Positions 47,296 through 52,587 of a stretch of DNA of 64,000 bases are shown piece by piece. How positions within the stretch are numbered: the first letter of the stretch is position 1; each line of letters opens with the position of its first letter. The translations under genes and the position numbers were made by a program. The notes under the pieces are model-generated. The model was not told the origin of the DNA. It was given only the letters and a program-made list of their open reading frames with translations, and made no database searches. This DNA is from Pseudomonadota bacterium (GTDB lineage Bacteria; Pseudomonadota; Gammaproteobacteria; Acidiferrobacterales; Acidiferrobacteraceae): positions 1-64,000 of the forward strand of contig JAKAXM010000006.1 of NCBI GenBank assembly GCA_021816625.1, in the 5' to 3' direction.

Positions 47296-48402
47296 ATGAC
47301 CGCACTTTTAACAGATCCTGGGGCACTCGCCGCGTTGTGCGCCGAGATCAGCGCGGCCCCCTGGGTGGGCCTGGATACGGAATTCGTGCGCGAGCGCACG
47401 TATTACGCGAAACTCTGCCTGATCCAGATCGCCACACCGCGCACGCTCGTCTTGATCGACCCCCTGGGTCTCGACATCGGTCCGCTCGGACAGGCCTTGG
47501 CGACCACCGGCCCAAAGATCCTGCATGCCGGACGTCAGGACCTCGAACTGCTCTTGCAGGAGACCGGGCGCTTGCCCTCCCCCTTGTTCGATACCCAGAT
47601 CGCGGCCGCCCTTGCCGGGCATGATGACCAGATCGGATATGCCGCACTCGTTGCGGCGGTTCTTAAGATCGAGCTCGCCAAGGACGTGACACGCACCAAT
47701 TGGGCGGCGCGCCCTTTGAGTGAACGTCAGCTGGCCTACGCGCAGGACGATGTCCGCCATCTCGAGCCTTTGCACGCCGAGTTGGGGGCGGCCCTGGCGC
47801 GCCTGGGACGCGCCGAGTGGCTACGCGAGGACTGCGCGGTCCTCGCGGACTTGGCCCTCTACCGCTTCGGGCCCGAGCAGTTCACGCGCCGCTATCGACA
47901 GGGTGCCGGGCTCGCGCCCCGCGCCCAAGCGATCTTTCAAGAGCTGCTGAGCTGGCGCGAGGGCATCGCTCGGGAGACCGATCTGCCGCGCAGCTGGGTC
48001 GTCAGCGATGCCGCGCTTTTGGAGCTGGCGCTACGGGCACCGAGCACCGTGGCGGGCTTCCAGAAACTGCGCGAATGGGATGAGCGGCACACCGAGCGCT
48101 ATGCCGCGGGCGCCCTGGCCGCGATCGCAGACGCCCCGCCGGCGCCGCTCTACCCCTGGCCGGCACCCCGTCTGCGTCCCGAGGAGGACGTCTTTTATCA
48201 GGCCCTGGTGGGCCTGGTGGACACGTGCGCGCGGGACCTCGGCATCCCGGCTGGGGTCCTGGGCTCGCGGCGAGCGCTAAAAGAGATCGTCCAGGGCGCG
48301 TCCCCCGGCAGTCTGGCCCGCGGGTGGCGGGCCGGGGTACTCGGCAGCGAAGGGGCGCGGCTCTTTGCCGAGATCGCGGCGTTTCATGACCAGTCTCGCT
48401 GA
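47296..48402 (+). CDS. rnd: Ribonuclease D
   Basis: A 368-residue 3'-5' exoribonuclease for tRNA 3' trimming. DEDD residues: VGLDTEFVRERTYYAKLCLI (Asp, Glu), HAGRQDLELL (Asp) and YAQDDVRHLEPL (Asp, with the preceding Tyr, i.e. DEDDy type). An HRDC domain follows (RTNWAARPLS..., then ELLSWREGIARETDLPRSWV). Length is normal. Its 3' end overlaps engB by 17 bases. Confidence 0.94.
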   Translation: MTALLTDPGALAALCAEISAAPWVGLDTEFVRERTYYAKLCLIQIATPRTLVLIDPLGLDIGPLGQALATTGPKILHAGRQDLELLLQETGRLPSPLFDTQIAAALAGHDDQIGYAALVAAVLKIELAKDVTRTNWAARPLSERQLAYAQDDVRHLEPLHAELGAALARLGRAEWLREDCAVLADLALYRFGPEQFTRRYRQGAGLAPRAQAIFQELLSWREGIARETDLPRSWVVSDAALLELALRAPSTVAGFQKLREWDERHTERYAAGALAAIADAPPAPLYPWPAPRLRPEEDVFYQALVGLVDTCARDLGIPAGVLGSRRALKEIVQGASPGSLARGWRAGVLGSEGARLFAEIAAFHDQSR

Positions 48403-48967
48403 CGCCGCCTTTCTGATGGGCGCGCCCCGCGTGCGCGACTTGCCCCCGGATACGGGCGCGGAGGTGGCCTTTGCCGGGCGCTCGAACGCCGGCAAATCCA
48501 GCGCCTTGAACGCACTGACGGGACGGAGCAGTCTCGCGCGGGTCAGCAAGACGCCGGGGCGCACTCAGCAGCTCAATGTCTTCGTCCTGGGACCGGCGCT
48601 GCGCCTCGTGGATCTGCCGGGCTATGGTTACGCCAAGGTCCCCCACGCACTCCGCCACGGCTTTGCGGCCTTGGCGAGCGACTATGTGGCGGCGCGTCAG
48701 AGTCTGCGCGGCCTGGTGCTGGTGGCGGATATCCGGCAAGGCCTCAAGGACGAAGATCACGGGCTACTCGCCCGGCGGCCGGGGCTGCCGGTACTCGTGC
48801 TGCTGTCCAAGGTCGATAAGCTCAATCGGGCCGAACGTGACCGGCGCTGGCGCGAGATCACCGCGGACCTGTCCGGACGAGCCACGCTACTCTCGTTTTC
48901 TGCCCATACCGGCGAAGGAGTGGCGGCGGCGCGGGCGGCCGTACTTGATTTCCTCGGCGGGCCGTAA
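48386..48967 (+). CDS. engB: Ribosome-biogenesis GTPase EngB (YsxC/YihA)
   Basis: A 193-residue GTPase: G1 AGRSNAGKSSALNAL, switch TPGRTQQLNVF, G3 LVDLPGYGYAKV, G4 LLSKVDKLN, and G5-like FSAHTGEGV. EngB helps late 50S assembly. The ATG at 48386 lies within the end of rnd and gives the family length; a longer frame adds only five residues of no likeness. It converges on polA, the same neighbourhood as in E. coli and pseudomonads. Confidence 0.94.
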   Translation: MTSLADAAFLMGAPRVRDLPPDTGAEVAFAGRSNAGKSSALNALTGRSSLARVSKTPGRTQQLNVFVLGPALRLVDLPGYGYAKVPHALRHGFAALASDYVAARQSLRGLVLVADIRQGLKDEDHGLLARRPGLPVLVLLSKVDKLNRAERDRRWREITADLSGRATLLSFSAHTGEGVAAARAAVLDFLGGP

Positions 48968-49037: not shown

Positions 49038-49072
49038 AAAAAAACCCCGGGCACAAGGGAGAGGACCCGGGG
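49038..49072 (-). terminator. Rho-independent terminator of polA / candidate sRNA
   Basis: 7-bp GC stem (49045-49051 with 49066-49072), 14-base loop and seven T on the minus strand. Confidence 0.85.
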
Positions 49073-49145
49073 AAAAACGAGACCCTGGGCCTGACGGCCC
49101 AGGTTACCCACTCAGGGAGGAGAAGCGGGTAAAGGACTCACGTCC
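49038..49145 (-). ncRNA. Candidate small RNA with C-rich loops between engB and polA
   Basis: About 108 nt on the minus strand with four hairpins in a row. H1: GGAC-GUGA-GUCC (49134-49145, GNRA-type loop). H2: 7-bp stem ACCCGCU/AGUGGGU (one G-U) with the 11-nt loop UCUCCUCCCUG (49106-49130). H3: 8-bp stem CCUGGGCC/GGCCCAGG with GUCA loop (49084-49103). H4: terminator CCCCGGG/CCCGGGG with loop containing CCUCUCCC, then seven U. The loops could pair with Shine-Dalgarno sequences. Known sRNAs Spot 42 (enterobacteria) and ErsA (Pseudomonas) occupy the polA-engB gap. A weak TATAGG box precedes H1. It could instead be only the 3' region of polA. Confidence 0.6.
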
Positions 49146-49181
49146 TATAACCGTAGACAGAGGGGTCCGCGAGAAGTTCCG

Positions 49182-51836
49182 CTAGTGGGCCTCATCCCAG
49201 TTATGCCCCACCCCGCACTCGGCGACGAGTGGCACCGATAAGGCCGCTACCCCCTCCATACGGCTCACCACCGCCTCCCGCACGCGCTCTACTTCGGCCT
49301 CCGGGAGCTCAAAGACGAGCTCGTCGTGGACCTGCATGATCATGCGGGCTTCGAGGCGCGCGGCGGCGAGATAGGTGTGCACCGCGAGCATGGCCATCTT
49401 GATCAGATCGGCCGCCGTCCCTTGCAAGGGGGCGTTAATGGCCGTGCGCTCGGCGTATTGGCGCCGGCCCGTGTGGCTCGCCTTGATGTCCGGTATATAG
49501 AGGCGGCGCCCAAACAAGGTCTCCACATACCCTTGGCGGCGGGCCAGGAGGCGCATGTCCTCCATGTAGCGGTGGACCCCGGGATAGCGCCGAAAGTAGA
49601 GGTCACAGTATTCTTGGGCCTCGGCCTGGCCGATGTGGAGCTGGCGGGCGAGACCAAACGCCGACATACCGTACATCAGGCCGAAGTTGATGGCCTTGGC
49701 GGCGCGCCTCTGCTCATCCGTTACCGCCTCGAGACTGAGGCCGAAGACCTCGGCGGCCGTGGCCCGGTGGACATCCTTGCCTTCCTTGAACGCCCGGACC
49801 AGCCCCGCATCGCCCGACAGATGGGCCATGAGACGCAATTCGATCTGGGAATAGTCGGCCGACAAGATGCACAGGCCAGGGCCGGCCGCAAAGGCCTGAC
49901 GGATCCGCCGGCCCTCTTCGGTCCGCACCGGGATGTTCTGTAGGTTGGGGTCGCTCGATGATAGGCGTCCGGTGGCGGCAACGGCCTGATGATAGGTCGT
50001 ATGAATGCGTCCGGTCCGCGCATCGACCATGGACGGGAGCTTGTCGGTATAAGTGCTTTTGAGCTTAGCCAAGGCCCGGCACTCGAGGATGAGCGCGGGG
50101 AGGGGGTACTCGCTCGCGAGCTCCGCGAGCACCTCCTCAGCGGTCGAGGGTTGCCCCTTGGGGGTCCGCTTCTTGACCGGCAGGCCCTGCTCCCCGAACA
50201 AGATCTCCTGGATCTGCGCGGGCGAATTGAGATTGAAGGGCCGCCCTGCCAAGGCGTAGGCGCGCGCCTCCCGCTCGGTGAGTCCGGCGGCGAGCTCTGC
50301 GCTCTGGCGATGGAGCATGGCCGTATCGATGGCCACGCCGGCTGCCTCGACCTCCGCGAGCACTGGACTCAAGGGCCGCTCGATCGCCGTATAGACGTGC
50401 TGTAGGCGCGGCTCGGCCTCCAGACGCCCGCCGAGCTCCACAGCGAGATCGAGCAAGGTGGAGATGGCATCTCCGGCAGCGGCGGCCCATTCCGTAAGCG
50501 GCACGGCGGCGAGGGCGCGGCGTTCGCGGCCGGCCCTGAGGAGACTCGCGACCGTGGTGATGGGCCGGCTGAGATACTTCAGGGCAAGGGTATCGAGGTC
50601 GTGATTGGGGGCCCCGCTATCGAGGACGTAGGACATGAGCATCACATCGTCCCAACGCCGGCCGAGATCGCGGCCGTGGGGCATCAGGAGTCGCAATAGC
50701 CGCTTGCCATCGTGGACGGCCAGGGTAGGGCCGTCGCCCCCCAAGATCGGCGCGAGGGCGGTTAGGATCTCAGGAAAGGTGAGACCAGGCTCGAGATCCG
50801 AAGCGACAGGCACGACGGCGGCGGTCTCCCGGGTGCCCAGCACCACGGCAAGCACCCCCTCTGGCGGCCCCCACAGCGCAAAGCCCAGGACCGGCGCAGT
50901 CCGCCACGCCGCCACACGCTGCGCCAAGTCCGCGGGACTCGCGACTACCGCAGCCGCGGCCGCCCCGCTCGCCCCCCCGAGCTCGGCACGCCAGGCCTTG
51001 AATTCGAGTTCGCCGTAAAGAGCACGCAAACGCCCCTCATCGGGGCTCTGTAAGGTGAGCTCACGCGGACTTTGCGGCAGGGGGACGTCGCAACGGATGG
51101 TGATGAGTTCACGCGCAAGCCTAAGGGCCGTCGCCCCGGCACGCAGCGCCTCCCCGCTGCGGCCCGGGACCTCGTCGGCATGGGCAAGCAGGCCATCTAA
51201 CGAGCCGTAGGTCTGAAGCCAACGCACGGCCGTCTTCGGGCCCGCGCCGGGCACCCCGGGGACGTTATCGACCTTGTCGCCGACGATGGCCAGATAATCG
51301 ACGATGCGCTCGGGGGGCACGCCAAAGCGCGCGGTCACGCCGGCTGCGTCCAAGACCTGGTCGGTCATGGTATTGACCAAGGTGACACCCGGACCGACGA
51401 GCTGCGCCATATCCTTATCGCCAGTCGATATCACGACGGCAAGGTTCTGGGCGGCGGCGGCCTGCGCGAGGGTGCCGATCACATCGTCGGCCTCGACGCC
51501 GGGGACGGCGAGCAGCGCTATGCCGAGCGCCCGAATGACCTCATGGAGCCGCGGTATCTGCACACCCAGGTCCCCGGGCATGGCGGCGCGCTGGGCCTTA
51601 TAGTCGGCGTAGAGTTCGTCACGGAACGTGGGGCCGGGGGCATCGAACACCACGGCCATGAGATCCGGCTTGTAATCGCCGCGCAACTTCCGCAGCATGT
51701 TCACCACGCCATAAATAGCCCCCGTCGGCTCGCCGCGGGTATTGCGTAAATCGGGCATGGCGTGGAACGCCCGGTACAGATAGGATGAGCCGTCCACCAA
51801 CAGCAAGAGTTGCCCAGGATTCCCAGCCGGTATCAT
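49182..51836 (-). CDS. polA: DNA polymerase I
   Basis: An 884-residue Pol I. The 5' nuclease domain (1 to ~290) has LLLVDGSSYLYRAFHA, GVEADDVIGTLA, STGDKDMAQLV and IVGDKVDNVPGVPGAGPKTA, all intact. The 3'-5' exonuclease domain (~300-480) is degenerate: the DxE of E. coli reads FALWG at 319-323 and the KYDR Asp reads GKRLL (377-381). The polymerase has motif A DYSQIELRLMAH (661), motif B RRAAKAINFGLMYG (~710) and motif C VHDE (836-839). It should repair and process Okazaki fragments without proofreading. The ATG at 51836 overlaps the divergent gene's ATG. Confidence 0.95.
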   Translation of the reverse strand: MIPAGNPGQLLLLVDGSSYLYRAFHAMPDLRNTRGEPTGAIYGVVNMLRKLRGDYKPDLMAVVFDAPGPTFRDELYADYKAQRAAMPGDLGVQIPRLHEVIRALGIALLAVPGVEADDVIGTLAQAAAAQNLAVVISTGDKDMAQLVGPGVTLVNTMTDQVLDAAGVTARFGVPPERIVDYLAIVGDKVDNVPGVPGAGPKTAVRWLQTYGSLDGLLAHADEVPGRSGEALRAGATALRLARELITIRCDVPLPQSPRELTLQSPDEGRLRALYGELEFKAWRAELGGASGAAAAAVVASPADLAQRVAAWRTAPVLGFALWGPPEGVLAVVLGTRETAAVVPVASDLEPGLTFPEILTALAPILGGDGPTLAVHDGKRLLRLLMPHGRDLGRRWDDVMLMSYVLDSGAPNHDLDTLALKYLSRPITTVASLLRAGRERRALAAVPLTEWAAAAGDAISTLLDLAVELGGRLEAEPRLQHVYTAIERPLSPVLAEVEAAGVAIDTAMLHRQSAELAAGLTEREARAYALAGRPFNLNSPAQIQEILFGEQGLPVKKRTPKGQPSTAEEVLAELASEYPLPALILECRALAKLKSTYTDKLPSMVDARTGRIHTTYHQAVAATGRLSSSDPNLQNIPVRTEEGRRIRQAFAAGPGLCILSADYSQIELRLMAHLSGDAGLVRAFKEGKDVHRATAAEVFGLSLEAVTDEQRRAAKAINFGLMYGMSAFGLARQLHIGQAEAQEYCDLYFRRYPGVHRYMEDMRLLARRQGYVETLFGRRLYIPDIKASHTGRRQYAERTAINAPLQGTAADLIKMAMLAVHTYLAAARLEARMIMQVHDELVFELPEAEVERVREAVVSRMEGVAALSVPLVAECGVGHNWDEAH

Positions 51837-52587
51837 GACGCCCCCAAAACCTGAAAAACCCCTCATCAAAAGAAAACCTCCCGCCGTGCGCCCCGGCATT
51901 GCCGCCCCCGAAGGAGGGCTGTCGCGCGAGGCCTGGAAGATCTTCCAGATCATGGCCGAGTTCGTCGAGGGCTTCGAGGCCCTGGCACAGATCCGCCCAT
52001 CGGTCAGCATCTTCGGGTCGGCCCGCATCGCGCCCGACCACCCGTATTTCACATTGGCGGAAGATGTCGCCCGCAAACTGTCGGACGCGGGATTTAGCGT
52101 CGTAAGCGGCGGCGGCCCGGGCATCATGGAGGCCGCGAACAAGGGCGCCTATGCCGGGCCGTCGCCCAGCGTGGGCCTCAACATACGTCTACCCCACGAG
52201 CAAGCGGGAAACCCCTACCAGGATATCCGGCTGACCTTTCAGCACTTCTTTGCCCGCAAGGTGATGTTCGTGAAGTATGCCACAGCCTACGTGGTCATGC
52301 CCGGCGGCTTTGGCACCCTAGACGAGCTCATGGAGATCCTGACGCTTGTGCAGACCGGCAAGAGCCGTCGCATCCCGATCATCCTGGTCCATAGCCCCTT
52401 CTGGGCAGGACTTACCGACTGGTTCCGGACGACGATGATCGCCGACGGGGTCATCGATGAGCGCGACATGGAGCTGTTCGTAACCCTCGACCGGCCTGAA
52501 GAGATCATCGACGCCATCTTTCGTTACTACGAGTTGAGCGGCTTCGAGCCTTCCGAAGAGGAAAAGGAGATCCAGCTCAACCTGTAG
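51835..52587 (+). CDS. LOG-family (TIGR00730-type) nucleotide phosphoribohydrolase-like protein
   Basis: A 250-residue Rossmann-fold protein with the family signatures SIFGSARIAPDHPYF, VVSGGGPGIMEAANKGAY and MPGGFGTLDELMEILTLVQ. LOG proteins release the base from nucleoside monophosphates (cytokinin-type activity in some). The ATG used here shares bases with the polA start codon on the other strand and has no clear ribosome-binding site. Homology begins about residue 28, so a start at GTG or at ATG 51952 cannot be excluded. The C-terminus is rich in Glu. thrB follows after 18 bases. Confidence 0.82.
   Translation: MTPPKPEKPLIKRKPPAVRPGIAAPEGGLSREAWKIFQIMAEFVEGFEALAQIRPSVSIFGSARIAPDHPYFTLAEDVARKLSDAGFSVVSGGGPGIMEAANKGAYAGPSPSVGLNIRLPHEQAGNPYQDIRLTFQHFFARKVMFVKYATAYVVMPGGFGTLDELMEILTLVQTGKSRRIPIILVHSPFWAGLTDWFRTTMIADGVIDERDMELFVTLDRPEEIIDAIFRYYELSGFEPSEEEKEIQLNL

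Follow-up and report, generated by a model that had tools for sequence, protein, structure and literature searches.

An anti-hemB family (RF02837) small RNA with C-rich loops and a likely sigma-E-type promoter between polA and engB in an Acidiferrobacteraceae genome

Introduction

ErsA of Pseudomonas aeruginosa is encoded in the polA-engB intergenic region (PMC8575079), depends on sigma-22 (AlgU, a sigma-E homologue) (PMC7565897) and, together with Hfq, represses algC at its ribosome-binding site (RBS) (PMC6321483). In Xanthomonas, the small RNA (sRNA) sX13 lies beside polA and uses its C-rich loops to repress G-rich mRNAs (PMC3771888). The anti-hemB family (Rfam RF02837, 'Burkholderia RNA 7') has a described member in B. 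cenocepacia, ncS04, reported as a transcript of 105 nt whose start has been mapped; it was detected on Northern panels, and its abundance was flat across the conditions and stresses tested (PMC5688073). The same study cites earlier work for binding of ncS04 to Hfq. No function of the RF02837 family was found in the open-access literature, in which no paper naming RF02837 by accession was found either. Here, we describe an RNA from the polA-engB gap of a gammaproteobacterium of the Acidiferrobacteraceae, located in the 64,000-nt stretch of contig JAKAXM010000006.1 that was analysed as a whole (hereafter, the window).

Results

A four-hairpin RNA of the RF02837 family is encoded behind polA

A preliminary description of the window had proposed a four-hairpin sRNA candidate with anti-Shine-Dalgarno loops in the polA-engB gap, and both the fold and the flanking genes proved to be as it had stated. 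The minus strand at 49145-49038 forms four consecutive hairpins, the last of which is a terminator with a U7 tail, and this segment had a minimum free energy of -54.8 kcal/mol (z -5.4 relative to dinucleotide-preserving shuffles, with 0 of 200 shuffles folding as well). The upstream neighbour on the same strand is polA, encoding DNA polymerase I (49182..52142, minus strand; the listed open reading frame (ORF), with a true start that is probably further in), which was assigned by NF004397/TIGR00593 matches far over the cut-off. Its stop codon, TAG, is at 49184-49182, and the sRNA begins 37 nt past it. On the other side, the GTPase gene engB/ysxC (48365..48967, plus strand; TIGR03598 match over the cut-off) is convergent with the sRNA.

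Hairpin 1 (49134..49145, minus strand, as for all parts of the RNA) consists of a GGAC/GUCC stem and a GUGA loop. Hairpin 2 (49104..49132) has a loop of 11 nt, or of 8 nt when a single C-G pair spanning a bulge is included, that holds the nearly invariant anti-Shine-Dalgarno sequence CUCCUCCC (49122-49115). Hairpin 3 (49084..49103) has a GC-rich stem, while hairpin 4 (49045..49072) forms the stem of the intrinsic terminator, its loop carrying CCUCUCCC (49064-49057), and is followed by the U7 tail (49038..49044), a possible 3'-end site for Hfq.

The sole Rfam match within the window was RF02837, which covered 49131-49036 over the full model (1-81) and scored 55.3 bits, relative to a gathering cut-off of 49.5 (cmscan). 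The family's traits are present, namely a C-rich first hairpin (UCCUCCCUGAGCGGG), a middle hairpin and a GC-rich terminator with a U-run. The window RNA (49038..49145, ~107 nt, with a predicted 5' end near 49145) thus has the C-rich hairpin, linker hairpin and terminator in common with anti-hemB/ncS04, as well as about the same length (105 nt). Hairpin 1 lies outside the Rfam model, whereas the window RNA and its relatives have it. Adjacency to hemB was not found at the window locus, where the neighbours are polA and engB, and hemB is not part of the RF02837 model. The name of the family is probably explained by Dechloromonas (L127), where engB and a hemB-like ORF flank the RNA. Judged from the Rfam match and the fold, the window RNA is a new member of the known but little-studied and functionally uncharacterised anti-hemB family, and its sRNA gene is real.

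The family is widespread and mostly syntenic

RF02837 matched at E≤0.001 in 55 of 60 relatives, 35 of which exceeded the cut-off. When genomes were drawn evenly over the class, matches at E≤0.001 were obtained in 168 of 369, although many of these are distant or uncertain members, since only 21 exceeded the cut-off. Across the Gammaproteobacteria, wherever the stretch was long enough, polA immediately preceded the RNA in the same orientation in almost every close homologue and in most of the distant ones, and engB was frequently convergent on the other side. A model built from 33 homologues (R1) gave matches beside engB in named records that included Dechloromonas, Ca. Thiodiazotropha and Spiribacter, among others.

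A second, shorter RF02837-like RNA (~40 bits) was observed in several genomes of the genus (L040:2005-2094, with equivalents in L041-L047 from genus and family relatives), mostly near sugar-nucleotide epimerase-like genes. It carries the loop CCUCCUCCCUGA and a different upstream region, in which a conserved block (CTCCGACTTTCGTCCGATG ... AATAAT) resembles a direct repeat plus a -10 element and not a sigma-E promoter. This paralogue was not found in the window's own genome. RF02837-like or similar sRNAs were repeated in tandem over stretches of a few hundred bases in G226, G317 and G333 (four copies each), in G316, G205 and G161 (two each), and at L105:3105-3500, which suggests local duplication in several lineages.

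Stems 2-4 covary, and loop sequences are conserved beyond the requirements of a terminator

Exactly four hairpins were formed by 53 of 55 homologues when these were folded individually. Covariation was assessed in an alignment of 33 sequences covering stems 2-4, in which the consensus structure was 94.7% paired. The preliminary description had named covariation of the stems in relatives as a check, and stems 2-4, including the GC-rich stem of hairpin 3, did show compensatory changes, with 80 such cells compared to 30 in shuffles. The covariation score was 0.312, relative to 0.168 in shuffled alignments (0 of 500 as high) and at most 0.078 when the structure was slid along the alignment. Stem 1 varied too much for alignment, and its support comes from the individual folds, from segment z scores and from an arm-swap test; in the latter, arms were chosen by folding, such that pairing with the own arm was favoured by construction, and the segment z scores and covariation therefore weigh more. 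Hairpin 1 segments had a mean z of -2.8 and hairpin 3 segments a mean z of -2.9 relative to shuffles, despite strongly differing sequences. The hairpin is thus kept in relatives while its sequence is very variable. The GNRA tetraloop noted previously is indeed present in the window RNA (GUGA) but had been over-read, as the hairpin 1 loops of relatives were GAUAA, GAUGA, GUUAU, ACAGA or longer, making a GNRA loop particular to the window sequence. In the other loops, the loop-2 core CCUCCCUGAG was invariant or nearly so, and the C-run of loop 4 was kept in 49 of 52 homologues.

A conserved sigma-E-type promoter precedes the RNA

Between polA and the RNA we identified a sigma-E/RpoE-type -35 element, GGAACTT (49174..49180, minus strand), 2 nt past the polA stop, and a -10 element, GTCTACG (49152..49158, minus strand), with a 16-nt spacer between GAACTT and TCTAC, a layout shared with the regions that precede rpoE and rpoH in relatives. 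An element of the form GAAC(C/T)[T]-N15..17-TC was present upstream in 56 of 65 homologues, relative to 1.3% of mononucleotide shuffles, and a stricter form in 35 of 65, relative to 0.03% of shuffles; the 65 homologues share ancestry, so that 56 of 65 does not amount to 56 independent events. The spacer was 16 nt in 45 of 57 homologue promoters, and a G preceded TC in 54 of 57. The promoter was absent in a few members (L144, L150, L157 and L165).

In E. coli, the autoregulated rpoE gene and rpoH have classical sigma-E promoters. In the clade of the window, GAAC(C/T)T-N16-TC was found upstream of rpoE in 29 of 30 genomes and GAACTT-N16/17-TC upstream of rpoH in 24 of 30, and the GAAC-type form upstream of both genes was present in the window's own genome too. 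At one rpoE locus (L171:1430-1500; G000:C12), the upstream sequence is GAACCT-N16-TCACT and the adjacent nadB-like ORF is divergent, which recalls the nadB-rpoE arrangement of E. coli. Genome-wide, a search for GAACTT-N-GTCTA matched the sRNA site alone, and GGAACTT-N-TC was not enriched over a reversed control; the promoter case consequently rests on conservation across species and on rpoE and rpoH. From this motif, we predict that the sRNA is likely under sigma-E control. No description of a sigma-E-type promoter for the anti-hemB family was found within the open-access literature searched, and this is apparently a new regulatory link.

The same sRNA family could instead be transcribed from a housekeeping sigma-70 promoter (TTGAAC...TATAAT-like), in which case the likeness to sigma-E promoters would be superficial and the RNA would stand outside the envelope stress response. 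Some homologues do have a T before GAAC and TATA after GTC, and in several (L020, L005 and L028) TTGAAC or TGAAC precedes a TATAAT-like box; the flat abundance of ncS04 in B. cenocepacia under the tested stresses would also fit. However, conservation falls on GAAC(T/C)T and GTC rather than on TTGACA/TATAAT, a sigma-70 scan of the sRNA upstream region found no promoter, and rpoE and rpoH carry the same GAACTT-GTC form. We therefore regard a sigma-70 promoter as unlikely.

The conserved promoter also strongly predicts an independent 5' end near 49145, and thus bears on whether the locus is merely a structured 3' untranslated region of polA with its terminator, or an sRNA processed from polA mRNA. 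The RNA is on the same strand as polA, begins close behind it and ends with a good terminator, and any readthrough from polA must cross it. Against this stand the position of the conserved promoter after the polA stop, the conservation of loop sequences beyond what a terminator needs, the occurrence of the family away from polA (beside hemB in L127, and as the paralogues of L040-L047) and the mapped start of ncS04, and such an origin appears very improbable. An sRNA with anti-Shine-Dalgarno loops in the polA-engB gap, as originally proposed, is the reading best supported by the family match, synteny, covariation and the dedicated promoter; the original proposal had recognised neither membership of RF02837 nor the sigma-E-type promoter.

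Relationship to other sRNAs encoded beside polA

ErsA and the window RNA have in common the polA-engB gap and a promoter of the sigma-22/sigma-E type, predicted for the window RNA by its motif. In contrast to the four hairpins and C-rich loops of the window RNA, ErsA is built from three stem-loops and pairs through an unstructured, U-rich domain II, which the window RNA lacks; these differences are drawn from the published description of ErsA rather than from its sequence. The earlier view that the RNA does not look like ErsA thus holds for architecture, in which the resemblance is weak, but position and promoter class are closer than had been thought. Weak R1 matches beside engB in Porticoccaceae (L105:3105-3215 and L105:3387-3500) and Motiliproteus (L123:3425-3517), each with a clear GTGAACTTTT-N-CCAGTC promoter, are possibly ErsA-like relatives.

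Like the window RNA, sX13 lies directly downstream of polA and has stems with C-rich loops, but it has three stems rather than four hairpins, an unstructured 5' end, and is Hfq-independent. Membership in the sX13 family was rejected (RF02232, 15 bits relative to a cut-off of 50). An Rfam scan around engB at 20 xanthomonad and rhodanobacterial loci returned no match.

In Photorhabdus, Pantoea, Rahnella, Buttiauxella and an aeromonad, it is Spot 42 that lies beside engB at this position. The window RNA had been judged unlike Spot 42, which agrees with the lack of an RF00021 match either at the gathering cut-off or at E≤0.5. Unlike the window RNA, the Spot 42 loci have neither a C-rich hairpin nor a GAACTT-GTC promoter; R1 scored them at ~17-22 bits, which is too weak for claiming descent. 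According to the literature, the alphaproteobacterial cuckoo RNAs and alpha-r7 resemble the window RNA in their C-rich anti-Shine-Dalgarno loops, and alpha-r7 is located at polA; no Rfam match over the cut-off to a family of the cuckoo/alpha-r7 type was found in the window.

Candidate targets and proposed mechanism

Loops 2 and 4 of the window RNA are exposed, and both resemble the anti-Shine-Dalgarno sequence. By analogy with the C-rich loops of sX13 and the action of ErsA at the algC RBS, the RNA would be expected to occlude G-rich ribosome-binding sites under envelope stress. In a whole-genome pattern search, long complementary target sites were not in excess over a reversed-pattern control. 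Two of eight off-locus loop-2 sites fell on start regions, just before start codons, and the gene behind one of them encodes a Cyc2-resembling protein of 492 aa that has a signal peptide and a CATCH haem motif. This outer-membrane cytochrome-porin candidate (L261:1501-2996; G000:C47) matched no model in Pfam or NCBIfam, and is called Cyc2-like because of its length and the CATCH motif that follows the signal peptide. In the site that precedes the start codon, 12 of 14 bases match the complement of the sRNA loop, and the ACAGGGAGA site was kept in most relatives of the same genus. Predicted pairing of this RBS with loop 2 was strong (-19.7 kcal/mol) and ranked second against 47 window ORFs, whereas its pairing energy with loop 4 was ordinary. 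Ribosome-binding sites are G-rich anyway, which biases such a ranking, and the Cyc2-like gene is accordingly a candidate target and a lead.

That the RNA acts as a sponge, sequestering Hfq or ribosomal 30S/anti-Shine-Dalgarno partners with no pairing to mRNA ribosome-binding sites, would agree with the resemblance of its loop to the 16S anti-Shine-Dalgarno sequence and with the lack of conspicuous long target sites. The near-invariant CUCCUCCCUGA loops nevertheless fit mRNA pairing, as with sX13, and we give the sponge function very little credence.

We consider it probable that the window RNA is an independently transcribed, trans-acting RF02837 sRNA that is sigma-E-dependent and uses C-rich loops to occlude G-rich ribosome-binding sites. 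Under envelope stress, released sigma-E would drive transcription of the RNA, starting shortly past polA and stopping at the terminator that the sRNA itself carries. With its CUCCUCCC and CUCUCCC loops exposed, the RNA would be able to base-pair with the G-rich Shine-Dalgarno regions of selected mRNAs, probably while Hfq is bound to the U-tail, and so lower their translation. These mRNAs would plausibly encode envelope proteins, among which the Cyc2-like outer-membrane cytochrome, with its RBS ACAGGGAGAAGAAG, is a speculative candidate.

Discussion

Of these results, it is the likely sigma-E promoter that a specialist would not have expected. It gives RF02837 a testable trigger (envelope stress), while the C-rich loops give the family a testable mechanism (RBS occlusion). 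More broadly, and only tentatively, many Gammaproteobacteria and some Betaproteobacteria outside the enterics may carry a sigma-E-driven, RBS-muting sRNA with C-rich loops in or beside the polA-engB gap, such that anti-hemB, the window RNA and perhaps ErsA would represent one ancient envelope-stress locus. In enterics, the CRP-controlled Spot 42 would have replaced it, and in the iron-oxidiser-like clade the RNA would repress a Cyc2-type outer-membrane cytochrome. The old remark that unrelated sRNAs lie beside polA thereby becomes a concrete question, namely whether they go back to a single ancestral stress sRNA or the site was taken up repeatedly.
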